Assembly: GCA_938030895.1 (NCBI GenBank)
Contig: CALHIV010000003.1
Location: 1-64,000 of the forward strand
DNA: 64,000 nt
Reading direction: 5' to 3'
From: an uncultured Nitrososphaerales archaeon
GTDB lineage: Archaea; Thermoproteota; Nitrososphaeria; Nitrososphaerales; Nitrosocaldaceae
The notes under the pieces were generated by a model that made no database searches, was not told the DNA's origin, and saw only the letters and a list, made by a program, of their open reading frames with translations. Positions 23,394 through 49,273 of this stretch are shown here, piece after piece. How positions within the stretch are numbered: the stretch's first letter is position 1; each line of letters opens with the position of its first letter. The position numbers and the translations under genes were made by a program.

Positions 23394-25739
23394 CTAGCAC
23401 TGATACATAGATGTATAGTATGCTTGTCCTATAGATAACCCTGCATCCCCTGCTGGTATAACGTTGTTATGTATGAACCTTAATCCATGATCCTCTACAT
23501 ACCTTCTAATGAGAGTAGTTATTATCCTGTTGTACGCAACCCCTCCAGATATGCCTATAGTATCTATACCATGTTTTACAGCATTATCAAGTGCTAGAGT
23601 GGCAAGGCCCTTTGCAATATACACATGGGCAGAGTATGCAAGATCTCTAACATTGAGCCTATCCCTGTTGCAGAATACCTCTTCAACTAGATACCTTGTA
23701 TCTAGAGTACCATTACTTATCTTCGGCTCTAGCCTAAGGTAATCATCATCGCTACCATACGCAGCAGTCTCCAACAGCATTGCAGGTTCTCCTTCGTACC
23801 CCCTCCTCTCTATCAGCCCTAGCAAGAATGAGATGGCATCTAGTACCCTACCTGTACTTGTGGTCTTCATATACCTACCCTTCCTTGCAATATCGAGTAT
23901 CGCAGCCATCTCATCCTTACCATGTGGTAGTGTATGGGATCTAGAGTATAGGTAATCCTCTACACCATCTATACTGCTAGGATAGAGTATACCAGCAACC
24001 ATGCGTAATGGGTGATATGCTGCTAGATCGCCCCCTATCATAGGCTGCTCCATCAAGTGTGCAACCCTATGGTAGTTGCTACCATCCACAAGGAATATCT
24101 CTCCACCCCATACACTGCCATCACAACCATATCCATTGCCATCGCATACTATACATACCATCCTCTTATCTCCCTCAACTCCTCTTCCACTTCCATCTTC
24201 TCCCCTACCCCCTACCAACTTATCCTCTATGAGTAGTGTTGATGCATGTGCATGGTGGTGCTGTACCCTCTTAACAGTACATCCATACTCTTCAGCGATC
24301 TTGTATGCTAGGTTAGTCGTTGGTATGGATGGATGGAGGTCACATACTATGATATCTGGCCTCACATTCAGCATCCTGCAGAACCTCTCAACTGTACTGC
24401 GTAGATTTATATATGCTCTAAGAGAGTCCATATCCCCCAAGTGTTGCGATGCAACTATCTTATCCTTGAATAGTATGGATATGGTAACATTGAGATGGGC
24501 ACCAAGTGCAAGTATGCATCTTGATGAGTATACATCTATGCTTATTGGTGATGGTACATAGCCTCTAGCCCTCCTAATGATCATAGGGGATGAGTTTACC
24601 ATGACAACAGAGTCATCGCAGGGGTTGATTATACCCCTCTCATGAATTAGGAAGTAATCCACAAAGCCAAGCCTTAACACTTCATCATCATCAGCAACTA
24701 TAGGCTCATCGCTAACGTTGGCACTTGTAACTACCAGAGCATTAAGGTTAATCGTGCTGAAGATGAGATAGTGTAGTGCAGTGTATGGTAGCATTACACC
24801 AACTGTATACAGGTTTGATATAAGGGGTGATAGGTTGTAGTTGCTACCTTTGCGCAGGAGCACTATAGGCCTTGCATCTGATCTTAGGATACTCTCTTCT
24901 ACACCATCCACTACAGCAAACTCCCTAACCGCATCTACACTCCTAGCCATCACTGCTAAAGGCTTACTCTCCCTCCTCTTCCCTCTTCTAAGCCTAGCGA
25001 TCGCATCGTCATCGTATGCAGATGTTATGAGATGGTATCCACCTATACCCTTGACCGCTACTATACACCCTTGCTCTATCAATCTCGATGCTACAGCTAT
25101 AGGGTTGCTACCATCGTAACCATGATCCCCAACCCTCCTCCCCTTGCCATCTACAAGGTAGAGCCTTGGTCCACAGTTATGGCATGCTATGCTCTCATTG
25201 TGGAACCTCCTACTCGAAGGGTCTCTATACTCCTTAAGGCACTCATCACATAGGTTGAACTCAGCCATGCTTGTATTTGCCCTATCGTATGGTAATGCTC
25301 TCACCATGCTAAACCTTGGACCACAGTCTGTGCATGTTATGAAGAAGTACCCATACCTTCTATTATCGGTGTTGAAGAGCTCGTTTAGACACTTGTCACA
25401 TACCGCAATATCTGGTGGTATTGAGGGTTCAACTGTAGATGAGGTATATGTACTCTCAAGTATTGAGAAGGTAGTAAACTCAGAGGCATCATCCAATACA
25501 CACTTCCTGATATCTATATGCTCATACACTGCTAATGCTGGCTTATCATGGTTGAGCTGATTGATGAACCTCTCAAGATCATGCTCATGACCCTCAACAA
25601 CTATCTCAACAGAGCCATCACCAGTATTCCTTACATAGCCCCTCAGGTTATTTGCAGTAGCAATCCTATACACGAATGGTCTGAAGCCTACCCCTTGAAC
25701 CCTCCCCTGTACGGTTATTGTATAACGCATATCTAACAT
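23394..25739 (-). CDS. hypF: Carbamoyltransferase HypF
   Basis: 781 residues. HypF makes the thiocarbamoyl group on HypE that becomes CN ligands of the [NiFe] site. Domains in order: acylphosphatase 'VQGRVQGVGFRPFVYRIA' (8-95), two zinc fingers 'CDKCLNELF...CTDCGPR' and 'CDECLKEY...CHNCGPR', a YrdC-like domain with 'AVKGIGGYHLI', and a Kae1-like domain with 'VQHHHAHASTLL' (about 490) and 'ISGGVAYNRI'. A Gly-rich insert follows the HHHAHA motif. It is divergent from, and about 370 bp away from, the hydrogenase operon that it serves. Confidence 0.96.
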   Translation of the reverse strand: MLDMRYTITVQGRVQGVGFRPFVYRIATANNLRGYVRNTGDGSVEIVVEGHEHDLERFINQLNHDKPALAVYEHIDIRKCVLDDASEFTTFSILESTYTSSTVEPSIPPDIAVCDKCLNELFNTDNRRYGYFFITCTDCGPRFSMVRALPYDRANTSMAEFNLCDECLKEYRDPSSRRFHNESIACHNCGPRLYLVDGKGRRVGDHGYDGSNPIAVASRLIEQGCIVAVKGIGGYHLITSAYDDDAIARLRRGKRRESKPLAVMARSVDAVREFAVVDGVEESILRSDARPIVLLRKGSNYNLSPLISNLYTVGVMLPYTALHYLIFSTINLNALVVTSANVSDEPIVADDDEVLRLGFVDYFLIHERGIINPCDDSVVMVNSSPMIIRRARGYVPSPISIDVYSSRCILALGAHLNVTISILFKDKIVASQHLGDMDSLRAYINLRSTVERFCRMLNVRPDIIVCDLHPSIPTTNLAYKIAEEYGCTVKRVQHHHAHASTLLIEDKLVGGRGEDGSGRGVEGDKRMVCIVCDGNGYGCDGSVWGGEIFLVDGSNYHRVAHLMEQPMIGGDLAAYHPLRMVAGILYPSSIDGVEDYLYSRSHTLPHGKDEMAAILDIARKGRYMKTTSTGRVLDAISFLLGLIERRGYEGEPAMLLETAAYGSDDDYLRLEPKISNGTLDTRYLVEEVFCNRDRLNVRDLAYSAHVYIAKGLATLALDNAVKHGIDTIGISGGVAYNRIITTLIRRYVEDHGLRFIHNNVIPAGDAGLSIGQAYYTSMYQC

Positions 25740-26113: not shown

Positions 26114-27229
26114 ATGCCATCTATAGTTGAGAGGGATGACTTTGGTGCCTTCTTTACGGTGTTGAGGGATATGGGTTATGAGATAGTGGGACCAAGGGTT
26201 AGGGACTCTGCAATAGTATACGATAGACTAGGGTCTGTCGATGATCTTCCTATAGGTATTACAGATCAGCAGGATAAGGGGTTTTACAGGTTAATGAAGA
26301 GGGATGATAGAGCATTATTTGGCTACACCGTTGGTCCACACTCATGGAAGATGTACCTCTTCCCTCCTCGCATACGTCTATTCACTGCAGAGATGCACGG
26401 CAATGGGTTGAGTATAGTTGGAGAGCACTACAATCCAAAAAAGTTAGCATTCATAGGGGTTAGGGCATGTGAGTTGCATGCTATACAGATACAGGATAGG
26501 ATATTCCTTAACGGTGCATTCAAGGACCCAGTATATGAGAGTCAGAGGAGGAATATATTCATACTTGCTGTGAACTGTACAGTATCAAGCAGTACATGCT
26601 TCTGTACATCCATGGGTACAGGGCCTAAGGTAGGCTCTGGCTATGATGTAGTGGTTACAGAGGTCCTAAAGCCTAGGCATCAATTCCTTGTTGATACTGC
26701 CACAGCAGTAGGTGATGAGGTTCTAAGCAAGGTAAGGCATAGGGAGGCTAGCATGGAGGAGGTTGAGCATGCGATGAGCATGGTTGAGGATAACGCAAAG
26801 GCAGTAAGCATGAAGAGAAGCATAGATACAGCAAACATAAAAGAGTTGTTGTACAACAGTTATGAGAGCAAGCGCTGGGATGATGTAGCAGAGAGATGCT
26901 TGGCATGTGCAAACTGCACAATGGTATGCCCAACATGCTTCTGTAGTACTGTTGAGGATGTTCTTGATCTGAAGGGTGAGCATGCAGAGAGGTGGAGGCT
27001 ATGGGACTCGTGCTTCAGTGATGAGTTCACATACATTCATAGTGGTAGTGTAAGAAGATCTACAGCAGCAAAGTACAGGCATTGGATAACCCATAAGCTT
27101 GCTTCATGGATAGACCAGTTCGGCACATCTGGCTGTGTTGGATGTGGTAGATGTATAACTTGGTGCCCCGTAGGTATAGATATAACTGAGGAGGTTAAGG
27201 CACTACAGCAATTAAATAAGGAAAGGTGA
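26114..27229 (+). CDS. hydB: [NiFe] hydrogenase group 3b, beta (iron-sulfur) subunit
   Basis: 371 residues. HydB passes electrons between the hydrogenase heterodimer and the NAD(P)H-binding HydG subunit in the cytosol. The C-terminal half has two 4Fe-4S motifs: 'CLACANCTMVCPTCFC' (about 257-272) and 'CVGCGRCITWCPVGID' (about 341-356). N-terminal blocks 'LPIGITDQQDKGFYRLMKRD' and 'AFIGVRACELHAIQIQD' match sulfhydrogenase/anaerobic sulfite reductase A-type proteins. First gene of the operon. Confidence 0.93.
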   Translation: MPSIVERDDFGAFFTVLRDMGYEIVGPRVRDSAIVYDRLGSVDDLPIGITDQQDKGFYRLMKRDDRALFGYTVGPHSWKMYLFPPRIRLFTAEMHGNGLSIVGEHYNPKKLAFIGVRACELHAIQIQDRIFLNGAFKDPVYESQRRNIFILAVNCTVSSSTCFCTSMGTGPKVGSGYDVVVTEVLKPRHQFLVDTATAVGDEVLSKVRHREASMEEVEHAMSMVEDNAKAVSMKRSIDTANIKELLYNSYESKRWDDVAERCLACANCTMVCPTCFCSTVEDVLDLKGEHAERWRLWDSCFSDEFTYIHSGSVRRSTAAKYRHWITHKLASWIDQFGTSGCVGCGRCITWCPVGIDITEEVKALQQLNKER

Positions 27230-27301: not shown

Positions 27302-27754
27302 ATGAGCATTGAGGAGAGTATAAGGATGCACTCATTCTTCAGCGATATAAGCACTGCGCATATGAGTAGTTTAGCATCGCATGCTCAACATCTAACTGTA
27401 GAGGCAGATAACTTCATATTCAGAGAAGGAGAGTATGCAGATGCATTCTACCTTATAACATATGGGAAGGTATCGCTTGAGTTATCAACGGCACATAGGG
27501 GAAGGATAATTATACAGACCATAGGTGAGGATGATGTACTCGGCATATCATGGCTCTTTCCTCCATATAGATGGCGTTTTGATGCTAGGACATTAACGCT
27601 AACGAGGCTTATCAGGATAGATGCTGCTCAGATGAGGAGGATGTGTGATGAGGATAACGCATTTGGCTACAAGGTTATTAGCAAGCTTGCAAGCATAGTG
27701 ATGAGACGCCTCCAAGCAGTAAGATTACAACTACTAGAGATGGAGGAGATGTGA
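27302..27754 (+). CDS. Cyclic-nucleotide-binding-domain protein in hydrogenase operon
   Basis: 150 residues forming a Crp-type beta-roll: 'FIFREGEYADAFYLITYGKV' (about 39-58), 'IIQTIGEDDVLGISWLFPP' where the phosphate cassette would be (RAS replaced), and a C-terminal helix ending 'RRLQAVRLQLLEMEEM'. No DNA-binding HTH follows, so it is not a full Crp/FNR regulator. Its place between hydB and hydG suggests a regulatory or structural partner of the enzyme. Such CNB proteins accompany other group 3b operons. Confidence 0.8.
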   Translation: MSIEESIRMHSFFSDISTAHMSSLASHAQHLTVEADNFIFREGEYADAFYLITYGKVSLELSTAHRGRIIIQTIGEDDVLGISWLFPPYRWRFDARTLTLTRLIRIDAAQMRRMCDEDNAFGYKVISKLASIVMRRLQAVRLQLLEMEEM

Positions 27755-27843: not shown

Positions 27844-27874
27844 ATGGTAGATATTTGGAGTGAGGGCATGTAAC

Positions 27875-28723
27875 ATGGGGGCTGAGAACTATAATTGCAA
27901 TGACTGCAACAGTGTAAACCCTTACTTACCGAGAATCTACAAGGTCAAGAGGGTTAAGAGGGAGACTCATGATACGTTCACCATAGAGATATTTGCTGAT
28001 GGCTTCAGGTTCATGCCAGGACAATTCAATATGCTCTATGCATTAGTTGGAGAAGTACCAATCTCAATAAGCAGTGATCCTGCAGATGGTAAGGTTATAT
28101 CACATACGGTACGAAGGGTCGGGCATGTAACAACTGCATTGTGTAGTCTAAATGTAGGGAGTAGCATAGGAGTGAGGGGGCCATTCGGTAACCCATGGCC
28201 TATAAGGGAGCAGGAAGGTAACGATGTAGTTATTGTTGCTGGGGGATTAGGACTTGCACCGCTAAGACCACTGATCTATTACCTGCTCTCAAATAGGGGG
28301 AAGTATGGGAGGATATTCCTACTCTATGGTGCAAAGACACCCAAGGATATACTCTATAAGAACGAACTCTCAAGATGGAAGGCTAGGTTTGATATCGATG
28401 TTTATGTGACTGTGGATAGGGCAGATGGGAGATGGCATGGTAATGTTGGCGTTGTAACATCCCTCATCCCTAGAGTTCATACCGATCTAATGCATTCTTC
28501 AGCATTCATCTGTGGACCAGAGGTTATGATGCGCTTCGTTGCAAGGGAACTTATCAACCTAGGATTCAACGATGAGAGGATATTCATATCGATGGAGAGG
28601 AATATGAAGTGTGCCCTAGGCATATGTGGGCACTGTCAGTTTGGGCCAGAGTTCATATGCAAGGATGGACCAGTGTTAAGCTACAGTAGGGTAGCAAGGC
28701 TATTAAGTATAAAGGAGGTGTAA
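27875..28723 (+). CDS. hydG: [NiFe] hydrogenase group 3b, gamma (FAD/NAD(P)-binding) subunit
   Basis: About 282 residues of the ferredoxin-reductase fold. 'FMPGQFNMLYALVGEVPISI' binds FAD, 'VIVAGGLGLAPLRPLIYYLL' is the NAD(P) Gly motif, and the C-terminal 2Fe-2S cysteines are in 'CALGICGHCQFGPEFICKDG'. It links the enzyme to NAD(P)H. ATG at 27875 is preferred over an in-frame GTG at 27860. 6 bp from hydD. Confidence 0.94.
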   Translation: MGAENYNCNDCNSVNPYLPRIYKVKRVKRETHDTFTIEIFADGFRFMPGQFNMLYALVGEVPISISSDPADGKVISHTVRRVGHVTTALCSLNVGSSIGVRGPFGNPWPIREQEGNDVVIVAGGLGLAPLRPLIYYLLSNRGKYGRIFLLYGAKTPKDILYKNELSRWKARFDIDVYVTVDRADGRWHGNVGVVTSLIPRVHTDLMHSSAFICGPEVMMRFVARELINLGFNDERIFISMERNMKCALGICGHCQFGPEFICKDGPVLSYSRVARLLSIKEV

Positions 28724-28729
28724 GGCTAT

Positions 28730-29530
28730 ATGGGGAGTAACAGCAGTAGAAGGAGGAATGGTAGGATACCAAAGCTTGCTGTATGGAAGTTCGCATCATG
28801 CGATGGGTGCCAGTTGAGCCTTCTAGACCTTGAGGATGAGTTGCTTGAGCTTGCCGATAGGGTAGAGGTAGCATACTTCCTTGAGGCTTCAAGGGCTGTG
28901 ATCAAAGGACCATACGACATCTCCCTCGTTGAGGGCTCAATAACAACTCCAGACGACGCGAATAGGATAAAGAAGGTTAGGAGTGTATCAAGGTACCTGA
29001 TAAGCATAGGAGCATGTGCAACAGCAGGAGGGATACAGGCGTTAAGGAACTTCAAGGATGTCAAGGAGTTTGCAAGTATAGTGTATGCAAAACCAGAGTA
29101 CATAACAACGCTTGAGAGATCGACCCCTATATCTGAGCATGTCAAGGTTGATCTTGAGTTGCATGGCTGCCCGGTGAACAAGTATCATCTACTTGAGGCT
29201 ATATCATCCCTGCTCAATGGGAAGAGACCAAACATACCCTCCTATAGTGTATGTATGGAGTGCAAGAGGGCAGGGAATGTATGCATAATGGTTGCAGATG
29301 GCATACCATGTATGGGTCCTGTAACTAGGGCTGGATGCAATGCCATATGCCCATCATATCGTAGGGGATGCTACTCATGCTTCGGTCCAAGTGAGTCTGC
29401 AAACATAGCATCTTTGAGCAAGAGATTCATGGAGCTAGGGGTAGATAAGGGATCTATAGTGAGAATGTTCAGGATGTTCAATGCATATGCACAACAGTTC
29501 AAGGAGATAGAAAGGTTGGTAAGCATATAG
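28730..29530 (+). CDS. hydD: [NiFe] hydrogenase group 3b, small (delta) subunit
   Basis: 266 residues, with no Tat signal, so cytosolic. The proximal cluster is bound by '[19 protein letters not shown]', '[14 protein letters not shown]' and 'ELHGCPVNK'; further Cys ([32 protein letters not shown]) hold two more 4Fe-4S clusters. A strong RBS (AAGGAGGTG) precedes the ATG. The first ~12 residues are Ser/Arg/Asn-rich and likely disordered. Confidence 0.95.
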
Positions 29531-29592: not shown

Positions 29593-31065
29593 ATGAAGGA
29601 AGGGGATCTTTATAAAAGGAGAGAGGAAAAGAGGGAGGAAAAGGAAGAAGGGAAGGTAAGGGAAGGTGCGAATGAAGGTAAGGATTATGACGTTGGTGAT
29701 GGTAGTAATAGTAATAGTAGTAATAGTAATAGTAATAGTAATAGTAATAGTAAGGCAGATGCTTATGATGATAGGAGCAAGGTTAGGAGGCTTAAGGTAG
29801 ATTACCTTGCCAGAGTAGAAGGCGAAGGGGCCATGTATATTAGGATAGTCGATGGCAAGGTTAGAGATGTTAAACTCAAGATATACGAACCTCCAAGGTT
29901 CTTTGAAGCATTCTTGATAGGTAGGAGGTTCTCTGAGGCTCCAGATATAACTGCTAGGATATGTGGTATATGCCCTGTAGCATACCAGATGAGTTCATCT
30001 TATGCAATGGAGTATGCTGCAAGGGTAAGGGTAGAGGGGATGATACGCCTACTAAGGCGCCTGATCTACTGTGGAGAGTGGATAGAGAGTCATGCACTCC
30101 ATCTCTTCATGCTCCATCTGCCAGACTTTCTTGGTTATGATAGCGCTATAGCGATGGCAAGGGATCATGGTGATATAGTTAGACAGGGGCTGAAGGTTAA
30201 GAAGGTTGGGAATAGGCTCATCTCACTCATTGCAGGGAGAGAGGTGCACCCAATCAATGTTAGGGTTGGGGGGTTCTATAGAGCAGTAAAGGAGGATGAG
30301 TTATATGCGATGCTAGATGAACTGGAGGATGCTAGGGATGTGATGATAAGTATGCTGAGATGGCTCTCTAAACTTAACTTCCCCGAGTTTGAGAGGGAGT
30401 ATGAGTTTGTATCATTAAGGCATGAGGATGAGTATCCTATACTGGAGGGGAGGATAGTATCCAGTAAGGGTTTGGATATAGAGGTTGAGGAGTTTGAAGA
30501 TCATATAGTTGAGGAGCAGATAGAGTACTCGAATGCACTCCATGCAAGGCTGAAGGGGAGAGGCTCATACATCGTCGGGCCGATGGCTAGATACAACCTG
30601 AACTATGATAGACTAAACCCGATGGTTAAGAGCATAACAAGGGAGGTAGGATTGGAGCATCCATGTAGCAATCCATTCAAGAGCATACTGGTTAGAGGTG
30701 TAGAGATACTCTATGCCATAGTCGAGGCTATTACACTCATCAAGAGATACAAGATGCCAAGTGAGTCATTCATAGATGTTAGTCCAAGGAGTGCAGTAGG
30801 GTATGGGTGTACAGAGGCCCCAAGGGGTATCCTCTACCATAGATACAGCATAGATGGCGATGGTATTATAACAGATGCAAAGATAGTGCCTCCAACATCG
30901 CAGAATCAGAAGAGTATAGAGGAGGATCTGTACCACCTTGCAGGTAGGTATGCAAACCTTCCAGATGACGAACTTGTATGGAGGTGTGAACAGGCAATAC
31001 GCAACTATGATCCATGCATATCCTGTGCAACACACTTCCTCAAAGCAAAGATAGAGAGACTATGA
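29593..31065 (+). CDS. hydA: [NiFe] hydrogenase group 3b, large (alpha) catalytic subunit
   Basis: 490 residues. Ni ligands: '[15 protein letters not shown]' (L1, about residues 122-136) and '[10 protein letters not shown]' (L2) with an 8-residue tail after the His that would be cleaved by the protease. '[12 protein letters not shown]' begins the core at about residue 76. The first ~70 residues are an unusual Glu/Lys-rich and then Asn/Ser-repeat extension coded by AGTAAT repeats, absent from relatives. Together with HydB/G/D it should interconvert H2 and NAD(P)H. Confidence 0.96.
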
Positions 31066-31128: not shown

Positions 31129-31623
31129 ATGGGTATGGTGAGGGGGAGTAGGAAGAGCATACTTGTAGTTGGTATGGGTAATGAGTACAGGAGAGATGAT
31201 GGGATAGGCGTGGTGGTTGCTAGGCATCTGAAGAGTATAGTTGGTAGGAGCGATGATGTTGATATAGTAGAGGCCGTTGATGCATCCAACATAATAGATA
31301 TGATGGAGATGGGATACAAGAAGATTATAATAGTAGATGCATTGCCCTTTAATACTGTAGGGGAGGTGTACAGGTTTAGGAAGGGGTCACTGCTTAACAT
31401 GAACAGTCATCTTATACATCCATCGTCAACACATGCAATGGATATAATTGAGGCTGTTAGGCTTGCTGAGACGTTGGGTATAGCAAATGACATCGATGTG
31501 GTTATACTTGGTGTAGGGAGCAAGGACTTTGGTATTGGTAAAGGACTATCTAAAGAATTAGAGGAGAGGATGGAGATGGTGGTTGGGGAGGTTATTAAAG
31601 AGATGAATGCCATGGGTGAGTGA
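31129..31623 (+). CDS. Hydrogenase maturation endopeptidase (HycI/HyaD family)
   Basis: 164 residues. Cleaves the C-terminal tail of the large subunit after Ni insertion. 'VVGMGNEYRRDDGIGVVVAR' bears the first metal-binding acidic residue, 'EAVDASNIIDMM' the second, and 'HPSSTHAMDIIEAV' the histidine. 'IIIVDALPF' completes the family pattern. It follows hydA with a good RBS (AGGAAGGAGG) and matches the predicted 8-residue tail substrate. Confidence 0.92.
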   Translation: MGMVRGSRKSILVVGMGNEYRRDDGIGVVVARHLKSIVGRSDDVDIVEAVDASNIIDMMEMGYKKIIIVDALPFNTVGEVYRFRKGSLLNMNSHLIHPSSTHAMDIIEAVRLAETLGIANDIDVVILGVGSKDFGIGKGLSKELEERMEMVVGEVIKEMNAMGE

Positions 31624-31629
31624 TGATCG

Positions 31630-31893
31630 ATGCATGAACTTGCACTAATCAAGGATATAATTGCAAGGCTAGAGGTTATTGCTGCTGAGAATAATGCTAA
31701 GAGGATAAGGAGTATAAGGCTGAGGTTTGGAGCCTTGACCCATACACCTGTAGAGATATTCAAGGAACAGTTCGTGACGATGGCTGAGGGCAAGAGTATA
31801 CTTCATAACACATCAATAGAGGTAGAGGTTGCAGATGAGATAGATGATAATGCACAGAGCATAATCCTTGAGAGTGTAGAACTGGAGCAGTGA
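31630..31893 (+). CDS. hypA: HypA-like nickel chaperone lacking the zinc domain
   Basis: 87 residues versus about 113-140 for HypA. The Ni-binding N-terminus 'MHELALIKDIIARLEVIAAE' and 'KRIRSIRLRFGALTHTPVEI' are clear, but the C-terminal zinc ribbon (two CxxC pairs) is absent: it ends 'SIILESVELEQ' without any cysteine. The region after the stop has no Cys-coding continuation in any frame, so this is not a simple frameshift. HypA delivers Ni to the large subunit with HypB; hypB is not nearby. Confidence 0.85.
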   Translation: MHELALIKDIIARLEVIAAENNAKRIRSIRLRFGALTHTPVEIFKEQFVTMAEGKSILHNTSIEVEVADEIDDNAQSIILESVELEQ

Positions 31894-31943: not shown

Positions 31944-32153
31944 ATGTGTATCTCATTCCCAGCACGGGTAATCCGTATCTCTGAAGATGGTATGAGAGCA
32001 GAGGTAGAGAGCATGATAGATGGTAGCATTATAGATGTTATACTCTTCACACCAGATGCAAAGGTAGGGGATTACATAGTTGTGCATTCTGGCATAGGGG
32101 TGAGGGTAGTGAGCAAGGATCATGCCATCTCTATATGCTCAATCTTCGAGTAG
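31944..32153 (+). CDS. hypC: Hydrogenase assembly chaperone HypC (copy 1)
   Basis: 69 residues. HypC needs Cys at position 2; the ATG at 31944 gives 'MCISFPARVIRISEDG', so it is chosen over the upstream ATG at 31929. 'VGDYIVVHSGIGVRVVS' completes the OB-fold. It carries the Fe(CN)2CO group with HypD to the large subunit. A second copy is at 34156. Confidence 0.92.
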   Translation: MCISFPARVIRISEDGMRAEVESMIDGSIIDVILFTPDAKVGDYIVVHSGIGVRVVSKDHAISICSIFE

Positions 32154-32200: not shown

Positions 32201-33238
32201 ATGGATAGGATAACTCTTATGCACGGGGCCGGGGGGAGCCTTATGCATAGCCTCATCCGGAACCATATACTCAAGGTACTCAAGCCATACATGGAGTTCG
32301 AGGTTCCTCTAACAGCGCTAGATGATGCTGGTGTATGTAATGGTATAGTCTTCACAACAGACTCTTACACAGTTAAACCGTTATTCTTCAATGGGGGTGA
32401 TATTGGGAGGTTATCTGTATCTGGCACTGTCAATGATATAGCATGTATAGGCGGTAAGCCTCTAGCCCTATCTCTAGCACTGATAATGGAAGAGGGCTTC
32501 CCTATAGATGATCTCGATAGGATACTTGCAAGTATAGAGCATACTTGCAAGGAGGCTGGTGTGGATATACTGAGTGGTGATACCAAGGTAGTTGAGCGAG
32601 GCTCCCTTGATAGGTTGATGATCAACACTTCTGGAATCGGTGTAAGGAACCCACTACTCGATGCTAACCTTAAGCATGTGAGGAGGAGTATAAGATGGCT
32701 TCTAGACTCTAATATAAGGGCTGGGGACAAGATAATAGTCTCTGGTAGTATAGCAGACCATGGCATGGCTGTGCTCTCAGCGAGGGAGGGTTATGGGTTC
32801 ACCAGCAGTATATGCTCAGATGTACGCCCATTGAATAGGCTGATAGATAAGGCGCTAGAAGCAGGCGGGGTTGTATGCATCAAAGATCCTACAAGGGGAG
32901 GTCTAGCAGATCTACTCAATGAATGGGCAGAAAAGTCGCATGTTGGGATAATGGTGTATGAGGATAGAATACCCATAAAGGAGAGTGTAAGGGCAGCAGC
33001 ATCGTTCCTAGGCATAGATCCACTAGAGGTTGGTAATGAGGGCAAGGTATGTATTGCAACGGTACCAGATAGGGCTGCGCATGTACTTGAAGCGATAAGG
33101 GAGTGTGATGAGGGTAGGGATGCTGAGATTATAGGAGAAGCGACGGATCAGTTCGATGTTGTTGCAATGAGGACGATAGTTGGGGGTACAAGGGTAGTGG
33201 TGAAGCCATCAGGGGACCCTGTACCAAGGATATGCTGA
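32201..33238 (+). CDS. hypE: Carbamoyl-dehydratase HypE
   Basis: 345 residues, AIR synthase-like fold. It dehydrates the HypF-made thiocarboxamide to thiocyanate. 'MHGAGGSLMHSLIRNHI' (N-terminus), 'TALDDAGVCNGIVFTTDSY' (metal/ATP loop), 'DPTRGGLADLLNEWA' and the essential C-terminal cysteine in 'SGDPVPRIC' are all present. Its partner HypF is encoded on the opposite strand at 23394. Confidence 0.96.
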   Translation: MDRITLMHGAGGSLMHSLIRNHILKVLKPYMEFEVPLTALDDAGVCNGIVFTTDSYTVKPLFFNGGDIGRLSVSGTVNDIACIGGKPLALSLALIMEEGFPIDDLDRILASIEHTCKEAGVDILSGDTKVVERGSLDRLMINTSGIGVRNPLLDANLKHVRRSIRWLLDSNIRAGDKIIVSGSIADHGMAVLSAREGYGFTSSICSDVRPLNRLIDKALEAGGVVCIKDPTRGGLADLLNEWAEKSHVGIMVYEDRIPIKESVRAAASFLGIDPLEVGNEGKVCIATVPDRAAHVLEAIRECDEGRDAEIIGEATDQFDVVAMRTIVGGTRVVVKPSGDPVPRIC

Positions 33239-33310: not shown

Positions 33311-33556
33311 ATGTTCAAGGCGCCATCTGAGGATGATGTGATCAGGCTGGTATGTATGGTATGCAACTACACCATGGATGTGCCTATGCATCATGACAAG
33401 CACATGCAATGGGTACTCGAGGGCATATTCAGAAAGAGGGAGTATCTTGTATGCACTGTATGTGGACTCAAGGTCGATCCTCCTCTACACTGTGGTAAGC
33501 CGATGCTCTACAGCATAAGTAGATACAGGGATGTTAGGGAGAGGCATGGCAACTAA
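33311..33556 (+). CDS. Small protein with duplicated zinc-knuckle motif
   Basis: 81 residues with two copies of the same 18-residue pattern: 'CMVCNYTMDVPMHHDKHM' (about 15-32) and 'CTVCGLKVDPPLHCGKPM' (about 48-65), i.e. C-x2-C-x8-H-(H/C)-x3-M. These could bind two zincs or one between them. No known family recognised with certainty. Its place between hypE and hypD makes a maturation role likely, possibly supplying the metal-binding part missing from the local HypA (inference). Confidence 0.7.
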   Translation: MFKAPSEDDVIRLVCMVCNYTMDVPMHHDKHMQWVLEGIFRKREYLVCTVCGLKVDPPLHCGKPMLYSISRYRDVRERHGN

Positions 33557-33570
33557 CATGGTGTTAACAT

Positions 33571-33906
33571 ATGAGTACGCATGGGTGGCATATGATGTTC
33601 GCAAAGTATATGATGGATGTTGCAGTTGACTGCATCAGGAGAGGCAGGTATGTTGCATCTGCATACGCACTCCTTGTTGTATTTGAGGAGATCATAGATG
33701 CATACTCAGCAGAGGATGGTAAACACTTCCATGAGGAGTACCTTGCAGATGCTTGGAAGGCTAGGCTTGAATGGATGAAGAGTAGTGGCCTGCTAGATCT
33801 ATGGGAGAGGCTAGTGTATTTATGTAGTAGAGTCGTTGGGGGAAGGGATGAAGAGGTAGAGGATATGCTTAGACTGGTCAGGGGCCTCATGGATGGAGAT
33901 GCATGA
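33571..33906 (+). CDS. Unknown helical protein in hyp cluster
   Basis: 111 residues, almost entirely helical: 'AVDCIRRGRYVASAYALLVV' then 'FEEIIDAYSAEDGKHFHEEY' and two more helices. The first two helices recall HEPN-type bundles but the RNase motif (Rx4-6H) is not seen. A second start at 33592 (ATGATG after GGGTGG) would remove 7 residues. It follows the zinc-knuckle gene by 14 bp and is followed by a microsatellite. No family assigned. Confidence 0.65.
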   Translation: MSTHGWHMMFAKYMMDVAVDCIRRGRYVASAYALLVVFEEIIDAYSAEDGKHFHEEYLADAWKARLEWMKSSGLLDLWERLVYLCSRVVGGRDEEVEDMLRLVRGLMDGDA

Positions 33907-34155: not shown

Positions 34156-34482
34156 ATGTGTCTAGCTTTCCCTGGTATTGTACTAAGTATAGATGGTGAT
34201 TATGCTAAGGTTGACTTTGGGGCTGGCGTGGTTAGGGATGATATAAATATAGCAGAAGTTAGAGGCGTTAATGTTGGGGACTATGTTCTTGTACATGCTG
34301 GTTATGCCATACAGGTACTTGATCTTGAGGAGGCATACAATGCGATAAGGTACTGGGAGGAGAACCTTGTATGGAAGTGTGAGAGATGTTCTATAGCATA
34401 TGAGTGCCCTCTAGGCTCAATAGCGACTGCACGCAAGGGTATAAGCTTAGGAGGGGATGGTAAGAGGGGTCATGAATCATGA
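34156..34482 (+). CDS. hypC: HypC copy 2 with Cys-rich C-terminal extension
   Basis: 108 residues. Starts 'MCLAFPGIVLSIDGD', with the essential Cys2, and contains 'VGDYVLVHAGYAIQVLD'; HypC normally ends soon after. Here about 35 more residues follow with 'WKCERCSIAYECPLG', a possible three-cysteine metal site. It overlaps hypD by 4 bp (ATGA). HypC and HypD form the complex that builds Fe(CN)2CO, so this is likely the HypD partner and the 31944 copy may serve delivery to HydA (inference). Confidence 0.9.
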   Translation: MCLAFPGIVLSIDGDYAKVDFGAGVVRDDINIAEVRGVNVGDYVLVHAGYAIQVLDLEEAYNAIRYWEENLVWKCERCSIAYECPLGSIATARKGISLGGDGKRGHES

Positions 34483-35678
34483 TGAGCATAGATAATAGCG
34501 GTAGTGGTGGTAAGAGCAGCGATGGCAATCTTGATCTAATTAATAATAACAATGGTATGCTAGATAAGAGGGATATCCTAGCGAGGTTCAGGGACCCAAT
34601 TCTAGCAAAGAGGATAGTCGAGAAGATAGATGAGTATGCCAATGAGATAGATGAGCAACTCCTCCTCATGCATATATGTGGAACACATGAGTGGAGTATT
34701 ACACACTATGGAATAAGATCCCTATTGCCTAAAGGCGTGGAGGTTAGAGCAGGCCCTGGTTGCCCAGTATGCATAACACCGGCATCTGATATAGATGCAA
34801 TGATAGATCTTGCACTAGAAGGTAAGACGATACTCACTTATGGTGATATGTCTAGGGCAAAGGGTTCAAAGGGGTATAGTCTTATTGATGCTAGAGCACT
34901 GGGAGGTGATGTTAGACTAGTTTATAGCGTGCATGATGCTGTACTCAAGGCTAGGAGAGAACCAGATAGAGAGTTCATCTTCTTCGCAGTTGGGTTCGAT
35001 ACAACTGCTCCTCCTACCGCGTATGAGGTACTGAAGGGTATGCCAGAGAACCTTAGCCTCATGGTATCGTATCGTTACATGCCTCCCATAGCAGGGGCAG
35101 TGCTGAGATCATCGCTTCTAGGAGTAGATGGTGTGATAAACCCTGGCCACTCATCCACCATCACAGGCATGAAACCTTACTATAGATACTTCCTCGAGAC
35201 AAAGAAGCCCCAAGTCTTCTGTGGATTTGAACCGATAGATATACTGCTTGGCATATTCATGCTACTCAGACAGATAAAGGAGGGTAGACCTATGTTAGAG
35301 AATGAGTATACAAGGTCTGTGACATGGGAAGGTAATACAGTTGCACAGGAGAGTATGGATATGGTCTTTGATCTTGGTGATGGGTACCTTAGAGGAGTTG
35401 CAGTGATACCTGAGTGTGGCTTTATGCTCAAGGATGAGTATAGCAGTATAGATGCACGCAATATATACTCGTTGAGGAGGAGCGATGCTAGAGATGAGTT
35501 CGTTGCAGGTGCAAGATGTGGCGAGGTTATACTTGGTCTGTGTGATCCCCCAGAGTGCCCCTTGTATATGAGAGGATGCACACCATCAACGCCCAAGGGT
35601 CCAACCATGGTATCTCAGGAGGGTACATGCAAGATATGGGCTGAGCATGGACTGATAAACTCTAGGTGCAGGATATGA
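34479..35678 (+). CDS. hypD: Hydrogenase formation protein HypD
   Basis: 399 residues. Fe-S scaffold for the Fe(CN)2CO unit. 'MHICGTHEWSITHYGIRSLL' and 'VRAGPGCPVCITPASDID' carry the catalytic cysteines, 'FFAVGFDTTAPPTAYEV' is family-typical, and C-terminal cysteines (CGEVILGLCDPPECPLYMRG) bind the 4Fe-4S cluster. The first ~25 residues are an Asn/Gly/Ser-rich lead. Coupled to hypC copy 2. Confidence 0.96.
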   Translation: MMSIDNSGSGGKSSDGNLDLINNNNGMLDKRDILARFRDPILAKRIVEKIDEYANEIDEQLLLMHICGTHEWSITHYGIRSLLPKGVEVRAGPGCPVCITPASDIDAMIDLALEGKTILTYGDMSRAKGSKGYSLIDARALGGDVRLVYSVHDAVLKARREPDREFIFFAVGFDTTAPPTAYEVLKGMPENLSLMVSYRYMPPIAGAVLRSSLLGVDGVINPGHSSTITGMKPYYRYFLETKKPQVFCGFEPIDILLGIFMLLRQIKEGRPMLENEYTRSVTWEGNTVAQESMDMVFDLGDGYLRGVAVIPECGFMLKDEYSSIDARNIYSLRRSDARDEFVAGARCGEVILGLCDPPECPLYMRGCTPSTPKGPTMVSQEGTCKIWAEHGLINSRCRI

Positions 35679-35708: not shown

Positions 35709-36374
35709 ATGACCATCTACTTCTTGGGCAATTCATTCTGCAGATTATGTCATACAAGTATGGATGCTTTGGTTAGAGAGCTGAACGTATGCTCTAAAGG
35801 CCTTGAGCATAAAGGGTTGATCCTATTAAAGCATGGGGCAAGTGCAAGGTTACCAGGCTCATATAGACTGGTCTTCATGGATCTATCAGTAGATGTGGGT
35901 ATCGATCATGGTTATGCAAAGGAAGAGCATATGTATGATCATGAGATAGATACACACATCTCAATATACAGGAGAAGGCCTGATGTGAATGCTGTATTCC
36001 ATACAAAGAGCCCACTTATATACGCCTCTACTAGGGATGGTATTATAGATACTGTTCATGCTGAGGCAACTTTAGTGCTTAGCGATATAATGATCATCAA
36101 GGATAACTCATCAGAGAGCATAGGCAAAGCAAGTGTAGGGGAACCTCTGAGGCCTGTAAGGATAATCGTATTCAGAGATGAGGTATACAGCATAGGCGCA
36201 TGTATACATGAGGCTAGAGCGTTCATGGAGATAATGGATGAGTGGGCAAGGGTCAAGGCTATAGCGAGTGCTTTAGGAGGTGCAAGGTACCCCATAACAC
36301 TTGAGAGGTTGAGGAGTCTGGGCTCCAGATATGCTAGATCGATAAAGTTTGGTGGTAGGGGCCTTGTCAGATAG
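35709..36374 (+). CDS. Degenerate class II aldolase-fold protein
   Basis: 221 residues of the class II aldolase/adducin fold: 'GLILLKHGASARLPGSYRLV' and 'HEIDTHISIYRRRPDVNAVF' align with the family, but the zinc pair HTH is 'HTK' and the third zinc histidine (xDHG) is replaced by 'FRDEVYSIG'. With two ligands lost it is probably not a zinc aldolase. It precedes an apparently intact paralogue by a few bp, so the two may form a mixed complex. It follows hypD by 30 bp. Confidence 0.75.
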   Translation: MTIYFLGNSFCRLCHTSMDALVRELNVCSKGLEHKGLILLKHGASARLPGSYRLVFMDLSVDVGIDHGYAKEEHMYDHEIDTHISIYRRRPDVNAVFHTKSPLIYASTRDGIIDTVHAEATLVLSDIMIIKDNSSESIGKASVGEPLRPVRIIVFRDEVYSIGACIHEARAFMEIMDEWARVKAIASALGGARYPITLERLRSLGSRYARSIKFGGRGLVR

Positions 36375-36387
36375 CCTATGTGAATGC

Positions 36388-37026
36388 ATGAGAGGGAGTG
36401 AGGAGTATATAAAGAGAGAACTGGTATCATGTGTAAGGACATTATTCTCAAAGGGTTATGTATCATCTGGAGGGGGTAACCATAGTGTAAGGCTTGGGGA
36501 TGAGAGCAGAGAGCGTACACGGATATGGATAACCCCATCTGGCTACCCTAGATCCCATCTCACTCTTGATGATCTAGTGCTTATAGATATAGAGGGTAAT
36601 GTACTCAAGGGCGATCTTAGACCATCTATAGAGGTTCCATTCCACACGGAGATATACAGGGTTAGAGATGATGTTAACGCGGTATCCCATACACACTCAC
36701 CATACTCACATGCATTAATCCAGACACTCGATATAGTGGAGGTTGAGGGGCATAAGGGGATATTCAGGTTAGATGATGCAAGGCTGAGACTGCCATTGGG
36801 CATACCCCCTCCTCTAAGCAAGATCTTGATACTAGAGTATAGGCAGTTGGGCTCAAGGGCACTTGCAAAGTTGGTTGGTGAAGCATTCACTACATATCTC
36901 ACAAATATAGTTGTGCTGTTGGATCATGGTGTAATAGGCATAGGGAGGTGCATACATGAGGCTATCTTCTATGTGCAGATGTTAGAGGAGTGGGCCAGAT
37001 GCATCACCATCTCGTATAGGTTGTAG
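36388..37026 (+). CDS. Class II aldolase/adducin family protein (zinc ligands intact)
   Basis: About 212 residues. 'YVSSGGGNHSVRLGD' and 'WITPSGYPRSHLTLDDLVLI' bind the sugar phosphate; 'EVPFHTEIYRVRDDVNAVSH' with 'THSP' gives the catalytic Glu and two zinc His, and 'LLDHGVIGIG' the third. Relatives cleave sugar phosphates such as fuculose-1-P or 5-deoxyribulose-1-P, and others are dehydratases (MtnB). ATG at 36388 follows the previous stop; an upstream GTG at 36349 would overlap. Substrate unknown. Confidence 0.82.
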   Translation: MRGSEEYIKRELVSCVRTLFSKGYVSSGGGNHSVRLGDESRERTRIWITPSGYPRSHLTLDDLVLIDIEGNVLKGDLRPSIEVPFHTEIYRVRDDVNAVSHTHSPYSHALIQTLDIVEVEGHKGIFRLDDARLRLPLGIPPPLSKILILEYRQLGSRALAKLVGEAFTTYLTNIVVLLDHGVIGIGRCIHEAIFYVQMLEEWARCITISYRL

Positions 37027-48319: not shown

Positions 48320-49273
48320 ATGGGAATAGATAATAAGAAGGTTGTTATAGTTGCTGCTATTGTTATAGCTATAGTTGGTATCATTATTACCAGTGTAGCA
48401 CTTCAAGGCCAGAATAGTAGTAGCAGCAGTAGTATTAATACAACGCCCCCTGAGAACTACACTCAACCATCGCAGGATGCAAGCAAGAGGCTCAAGATAA
48501 TGGCTACATTCTATCCTCTCTATGAGTTTAGCAAGGCTATCGTTGGAGATAAGGCCGATGTGGATCTATTCATCCCCTCTGGCTTGGAGCCTCACGACTG
48601 GGAGCCATCGGCAAGGGACCTTGAGAGGTTAAAGGATTACCAACTACTGGTCTATAACAGTGTAACATTCGAGCCCTACATGGATAGGATCAGGGACCTA
48701 GGCTATGATCTGAAGATGGTTGAGGCAGCAAAGGGCATAATGCTTGACCAGGATCCACACGTATGGCTCGATCCAGTACTTGCAAAGGAGCAGGTTAGGA
48801 TCATACGAGATGCAATAACGAGCATGGATGAGGAGAACAGCAGATACTATGATGGGAATGCTAGAGCATACATGGCAAGACTCGATGAGCTTCATGCAAA
48901 GTTCGAGGAGGGGCTTAGAGAGTGTGAGAGGAGGGAGTTCATAACACTTCATGGAGCATACAATTACCTTGCCAGTCGGTATGGGTTGGAGCAGATAACC
49001 ATCGCTGGCCTTGAGCCAGAGCATGATATACCAGCAGCAAAGATAAGGGAGATAATAGATATGGCAAGGAAGCATGGTATTGATGTTGTTTATGCAGAGG
49101 AGGGCATAGACGATAGATTGGTTAGAGCACTAGCAGAGGAGATTAATGCTAAAGTGCTTACACTTAGCCCCATAGAGGTGCTAGATGATGAGGACTTGGA
49201 AGAGGGTAAGACGTATATAACAAAGATGGAGGAGAATCTAGCCAATCTGAGGATAGGGCTTGGCTGTAGATAA
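48320..49273 (+). CDS. Metal ABC transporter substrate-binding protein (ZnuA-like)
   Basis: 317 residues. N-terminal membrane anchor (about 7-29), Ser/Asn/Pro linker, then a cluster 9 binding protein: 'IMATFYPLYEFSKAIVGDKA', ligands in 'LEPHDWEPSARDLERL', 'DPHVWLDPVLAKEQ', 'FITLHGAYNYLASRYGL' and 'DVVYAEEGIDDRL'. The His-rich loop of zinc-specific members is absent, so Zn, Mn or Ni are all possible. First gene of an importer operon, with its operator upstream. Confidence 0.92.
   Translation: MGIDNKKVVIVAAIVIAIVGIIITSVALQGQNSSSSSSINTTPPENYTQPSQDASKRLKIMATFYPLYEFSKAIVGDKADVDLFIPSGLEPHDWEPSARDLERLKDYQLLVYNSVTFEPYMDRIRDLGYDLKMVEAAKGIMLDQDPHVWLDPVLAKEQVRIIRDAITSMDEENSRYYDGNARAYMARLDELHAKFEEGLRECERREFITLHGAYNYLASRYGLEQITIAGLEPEHDIPAAKIREIIDMARKHGIDVVYAEEGIDDRLVRALAEEINAKVLTLSPIEVLDDEDLEEGKTYITKMEENLANLRIGLGCR

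Follow-up and report, generated by a model that had tools for sequence, protein, structure and literature searches.

A single-origin clade of HypA proteins without the zinc ribbon is linked to group 3b [NiFe] hydrogenase cassettes without hypB

The HypA encoded in the window (the whole 64,000-nucleotide stretch analysed here, from an uncultured archaeon of the Nitrosocaldaceae) is, judged from its sequence, a clean internal absence of the zinc ribbon with the last strand kept, and not a truncation. It belongs to what phylogenetic analysis identifies as a distinct, single-origin clade extending from archaea to proteobacterial plasmids, from which the ribbon is missing as a unit. Gene order links this clade to group 3b [NiFe] hydrogenase genes that appear to travel as a cassette without hypB. 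We propose that clade HypA probably serves a HypB-free maturation route for this one hydrogenase type, through a direct, NTPase-free handover of nickel from HypA to the large subunit HydA.

A HypA without the zinc ribbon

The 87-aa HypA of this heat-loving archaeon (ORF 31630–31893, plus strand) starts with MHEL and has no cysteine, hence no CxxC. It matched PF01155 (Pfam HypA) at 39.4 bits, above the curated cut-off of 28.9 bits, over profile positions 1–66 of 112 only. Its score against the HypA equivalog TIGR00100 was 29.3 bits over model positions 1–67 of 116 only, under the equivalog cut-off of 88.1 bits. PF01155 was also matched by all 11 aligned members of the clade. The protein is laid out as the MHE motif, helix-strand-helix-strand, a short loop and a C-terminal strand, AQSIILESVELE (residues 75–86). 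Secondary structure in the AlphaFold2 model (mean pLDDT 91) comprised H2–20, E25–33, H41–52, E62–67 and E78–86. When this model was compared with the PDB using Foldseek, the best 14 matches were all HypA chains, including 6g81, 3a43 and 5yxy, with TM-scores by query length of 0.78–0.85 for end-to-end alignments in which the ribbon was a gap; against these three structures most values were 0.80–0.85. The predicted structure thus shows an intact nickel-binding domain with its last beta strand, and the sequence-only reading that preceded this work had rightly described the MHE N-terminus and first domain as intact.

In an alignment against 92 other HypA sequences, the window HypA and 22 relatives lacked a block of ~27 consensus columns containing both CxxC. 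The last HypA strand resumes after this gap (AQDIiLeSlElE in the ribbon-less proteins, GrElrlksiEve in other HypA), and since residues 75–86 correspond to this C-terminal strand, only the inserted ribbon is gone. CxxC was found in 0/23 clade members, and two CxxC in 89/92 of the other sequences. The Met1-His2-Glu3 nickel motif, residues 1–3 of the window HypA, was kept in 22/23 clade members. Downstream of the hypA stop, no frame encodes a zinc ribbon or CxxC and the next open frame is HypC, as expected from the earlier claim that no Cys-coding continuation exists there. These ribbon-free frames, together with the same form in relatives, rule out a frameshift or single-base truncation. The earlier description of a 'designed truncation' and not one base change therefore survives in part: this is a selected form and not a chance mutation, but it is not a truncation, as the last strand is kept and only the ribbon is missing.

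The hydrogenase locus

The locus begins with two minus-strand genes, hypF and one for an 86-aa protein, and continues with hydB, a cNMP-binding-domain protein, hydG, hydD, hydA, a protease and hypA, followed by hypC, hypE, an 81-aa zinc-knuckle protein, a 111-aa protein, a second hypC and hypD. Its features are as follows.

23394–25739, minus strand: hypF (Pfam HypF_C_2, Sua5_yciO_yrdC, zf-HYPF, Acylphosphatase)
26114–27229, plus strand: hydB, 4Fe-4S subunit (Pfam Fer4_22, 115 bits)
27302–27754, plus strand: cNMP-binding-domain protein, a constant cassette member between hydB and hydG (PF00027, 51.5 bits; synteny)
27860–28723, plus strand: hydG, FAD/NAD(P)-binding subunit (tblastn 43–55% to bacterial cassettes; annotation in the Pandoraea cassette)
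28730–29530, plus strand: hydD, hydrogenase small subunit (Oxidored_q6; NF040836, 188 bits, under the equivalog cut-off)
29593–31065, plus strand: hydA, group 3b [NiFe] large subunit, the nickel-insertion substrate (NF040828 sulfhydrogenase alpha, 288 bits, under the equivalog cut-off)
31129–31623, plus strand: HycI-type hydrogenase maturation protease (TIGR00072, 90 bits, over cut-off; synteny)
31630–31893, plus strand: hypA without zinc ribbon (87 aa; Pfam HypA, AlphaFold2, Foldseek, conservation in genus and family)
31944–32153, plus strand: hypC, first copy, MCIS... start (Pfam HupF_HypC, 44 bits)
32201–33238, plus strand: hypE (TIGR02124, 374 bits, over cut-off)
33311–33556, plus strand: 81-aa zinc-knuckle protein (weak Zn-ribbon Pfam matches; tblastn matches only in loci L061–L064)
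34156–34482, plus strand: hypC, second copy, MCLAFPG... start (TIGR00074, 59 bits, over cut-off)
34479–35678, plus strand: hypD (TIGR00075, 381 bits, over cut-off)

The subunits HydBGDA, with the nickel-ligating Cys of HydA present (motifs CGIC and DPCISC), assign the enzyme to the group 3b [NiFe] hydrogenases, the group stated for the hydrogenase of close relatives in PMC5817080. The HycI-type protease lies directly upstream of hypA in the window and in nearly all related cassettes. Several minor features were also observed. The first ~60 residues of the hydA frame (29593–29790) are of low complexity (Glu/Lys, Ser/Asn repeats), and the real start may be downstream. Two hypC paralogues share the locus, and the C-terminal extension of the second carries KCERC...C. 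The 111-aa protein (33571–33906) had no Pfam match and weak similarity to the end of a dienelactone hydrolase structure; it also stands beside the zinc-knuckle gene in L061–L064. Two tandem class II aldolase-family genes, kept in Nitrosocaldus, follow right after hypD (35709–37026).

The genome (1.37 Mb, 24 contigs, 98.7% complete) encodes one hydrogenase large subunit of the hydA kind. A search with the HypA profile found no second HypA in it. The other matches cover the zinc-ribbon half only, the best coming from what we take to be a LysW-like carrier and another presumably from ribosomal S27e, and were dismissed as zinc ribbons of proteins read as unrelated. No protein in the genome exceeded the cut-off of TIGR00073, the GTPase HypB model (121.2 bits); the best match, at 22.5 bits, was a 320-aa protein that is presumably of MeaB/ArgK type. 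The window also has a P-loop gene at 49260, which was considered as HypB and rejected because it reads, by sequence, as the ATPase of an ABC transporter. The absence of hypB, first remarked for the window, hence extends by this profile to the whole genome. A full-length hypA and hypB elsewhere, with the window copy as a remnant, were looked for in the genome and not found. The suggestion that nickel delivery works differently here is probably correct.

Occurrence and phylogeny of ribbon-less HypA

Comparison of HypA lengths among related archaea, as the sequence-only reading had proposed, recovered the same ribbon-less form in 6/7 Nitrosocaldaceae genomes. The seventh has neither hypA nor hydA, so that hypA is missing only together with the hydrogenase. 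Among five Nitrosocaldus hypA sequences dN/dS was 0.13–0.31, and at this level of sequence comparison ribbon-less HypA is under purifying selection and fixed in the Nitrosocaldaceae. The loss of a domain considered important in model HypA proteins could suggest that the window hypA is a decaying remnant. This reading is scarcely credible: it is contradicted by the purifying selection, by conservation across sister genera and phyla with MHE and the last strand intact, and by the absence of hypA only alongside absence of the hydrogenase. In Nitrosothermus the cassette is split, with hypF-hydBGDA-protease on one contig and hypA-hypC-hypE on another.

A sample of 398 genomes from the phylum held no further ribbon-less HypA of the same kind beyond the Nitrosocaldaceae; a short HypA in one genome (G154, a 102-aa frame) was rejected because the contig ends there. 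The form is not peculiar to this archaeon, since bacteria of several groups contribute members to the clade. When 84,980 species genomes were scanned with the archaeal alignment, same-length proteins turned up in Verrucomicrobiales, KSB1 and Modicisalibacter. Nine additional members came from a sample of Modicisalibacter's order (Gammaproteobacteria), and plasmids of Pandoraea and Paraburkholderia (Burkholderiaceae) added three. Scores in Modicisalibacter's order were bimodal, with ten matches at 80–131 bits over 85–87 positions and the next at 42 bits over ~67 positions. An Elusimicrobia match (L071) proved to be a full-length HypA and was set aside.

All 23 sampled ribbon-less proteins formed one clade (support 100/98, 87 columns), which was also recovered from the 65 nickel-domain columns before the junction alone (SH-aLRT 97). 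Diagnostic residues were Ala35 (23/23 versus 13/92 other HypA) and Ala75 and Gln76 (22/23 each), where 88/92 other HypA have Gly at 75. The signatures GAL (34–36) and AQ (75–76) are common to the bacterial members. Separately, the Verrucomicrobia genome G844 (L131/L193; L193 2103–2387) encodes a 94-aa ribbon-less HypA that arose independently, outside the clade, and has HypB adjoining.

Gene order was shared by the gammaproteobacterial and Pandoraea cassettes (hydB, cNMP protein, hydG, hydD, hydA, protease, hypA, hypF, hypC, hypD, hypE). Some cassette loci stop at contig ends; in those Verrucomicrobia loci that extend sufficiently, hypD-hypE are found upstream of hydB. No hypB was found in the group 3b cassettes with clade HypA among the archaeal, bacterial and plasmid loci examined. 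The entire series without hypB is present on a conjugative Pandoraea plasmid, where hydA is interrupted. On this plasmid, pPV15, hydA (L152 14214–15490) appears to be in two pieces and the remaining cassette looks intact. The Paraburkholderia plasmid hypA, the one clade copy with Arg2 for His2, has no hypF, C, D or E adjoining, and for these two reasons may be decaying.

These cassettes also bear on the 81-aa zinc-knuckle neighbour, which lies between hypE and the second hypC and has two zinc-knuckle motifs, CMVC...HHDKHM and CTVC...HCGKPM. Its position inside the maturation cluster and its conservation in the family (62–72% identity) would suit a protein that provides the zinc domain in trans. 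We consider this very improbable, as tblastn detected no counterpart in the bacterial cassettes that carry this type of HypA, and the knuckle motifs show no match to the HypA model. That HypA needs the knuckle protein as a partner is not supported, the knuckle gene having been found in Nitrosocaldaceae cassettes only.

Co-occurrence with HypB

Amongst 45 genomes tested together, many of the genomes compared being drafts, HypB scored over cut-off in 0/10 clade genomes and in 35/35 control genomes with canonical HypA (Fisher test, P = 3e−10, uncorrected for kinship). Nor was a HypB over cut-off found in the genomes with clade HypA from Nitrosocaldaceae (six) or Verrucomicrobia (four). Overall, HypB was absent from 20/21 genomes carrying clade HypA. 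The exception, KSB1, encodes HypB on a different contig, where it adjoins a second HypA of full length. The reverse relationship fails: ~15/20 genomes of the window's order with full-length HypA have no GTPase HypB over cut-off, so absence of HypB alone is not tied to loss of the ribbon. Full-length HypA without GTPase HypB was observed in families f6, f8, f10 and f13 of this order. Given the single origin of the clade, the association between the missing ribbon and missing HypB mostly reflects the inheritance of a single cassette, as opposed to repeated independent co-loss.

Another GTPase could take the place of HypB. UreG, the urease GTPase, was proposed as its substitute for Nitrosococcus oceani AFC132 (PMC7285500), and UreG-like proteins (70–84 bits against the HypB model) are encoded in three Nitrosocaldus and 6/10 gammaproteobacterial genomes with ribbon-less HypA. 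Such a match is absent, however, from at least nine clade genomes (the window's own, G004, G476, G478, G479, G480, G871, G1245 and G1058), and urease occurs in only some Nitrosocaldus MAGs (PMC7819960). Genome content thus contradicts UreG as a general HypB replacement, and we regard the substitution as improbable. An unlinked NTPase working with ribbon-less HypA (MeaB, a CobW-like protein or, as in Thermococcus, an 'ATPase HypB' of MinD/Mrp type) is a somewhat more probable substitute. An ATPase-type HypB is known in Thermococcus (PMC9164220, PMC12134894), and among the P-loop proteins of the genome is a MeaB/ArgK-like GTPase. We nevertheless think it unlikely, because no NTPase gene turned up, by annotation or by match, in those bacterial and plasmid cassettes that are complete.

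Nickel delivery to HydA

In the HypB-free route that we favour, HypCDEF would first install Fe(CN)2CO. Ribbon-less HypA, with nickel presumably bound at its N-terminus via Met1-His2-Glu3, would then dock straight onto HydA, by analogy with the known HypA-HyhL complex, and release nickel into the open HydA site, after which the protease would cut the HydA tail. No NTPase would power loading, so nickel affinity or supply must be enough alone. We infer direct, NTPase-free delivery from three published observations: HypA can form a complex with the large subunit in the absence of HypB, and the nickel sites lie near each other in the HyhL-HypA structure (PMC7055735); high nickel can bypass HypAB, and NTP-bound HypB lifts the nickel affinity of HypA to nM (PMC12134894); and Cys mutations in the zinc site of Helicobacter pylori HypA reduce hydrogenase activity to 9–60% (PMC7055735), leaving these mutants partly active. 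The same values mean that losing the site is not neutral in canonical HypA. More tentatively, with the balance tipping slightly against it, a nickel-domain-only HypA might act as the sole nickel factor in nucleotide-free insertion, without HypB or a zinc site. If so, the chief role of the zinc ribbon would be to link HypA to its NTPase, and nature would provide a minimal, portable set of maturation genes for group 3b hydrogenases.

Clade HypA shares with canonical HypA (PF01155, TIGR00100; 6g81, 3a43, 5yxy) the MHE motif, nickel-domain fold, C-terminal strand and location in a hyp cluster. It differs in having no CxxC ribbon, in GAL at 34–36 and AQ at 75–76 replacing the usual Gly 75, and in a cassette without HypB. 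According to a review, all HypA carry a nickel and a zinc site (PMC7055735), and the pairing of HypA with HypB, along with nucleotide hydrolysis, seems to have been kept throughout evolution (PMC7055735, PMC12134894). No published report of a HypA without the zinc domain was found in the largely open-access literature searched, and searches for short or truncated HypA returned only off-topic results. A selected, natural set of HypA without the zinc site, in genomes mostly without HypB, makes both the purpose of the zinc domain and the need for an NTPase testable, and suggests a smaller gene set for making group 3b hydrogenases in other hosts.

Maturation of an archaeal [NiFe] hydrogenase without GTPase HypB is shared with Thermococcus, where, unlike here, the zinc domain is kept and there is an ATPase partner. 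The group 3b hydrogenase locus of closely related Nitrosocaldus species is of the same type as that in the window; in the searched passages of its descriptions (PMC5817080, PMC5797428) accessory or maturation factors are given, whereas hypA, hypB and the loss of a zinc domain go unmentioned. The AFC132-type group 3b clusters (Nitrosococcus oceani AFC132, Nitrospina, Marinobacter, Sorangium), compared here by description, likewise combine 3b genes with hypA-hypF-hypC-hypD-hypE, and their missing hypB was remarked in 2020 (hypAFCDE; PMC7285500). That account does not report the missing zinc domain, and its UreG proposal fails for several of our genomes. The gene number in Nitrospina gracilis, four subunits and six accessory proteins (PMC3578206), fits the same cassette set.
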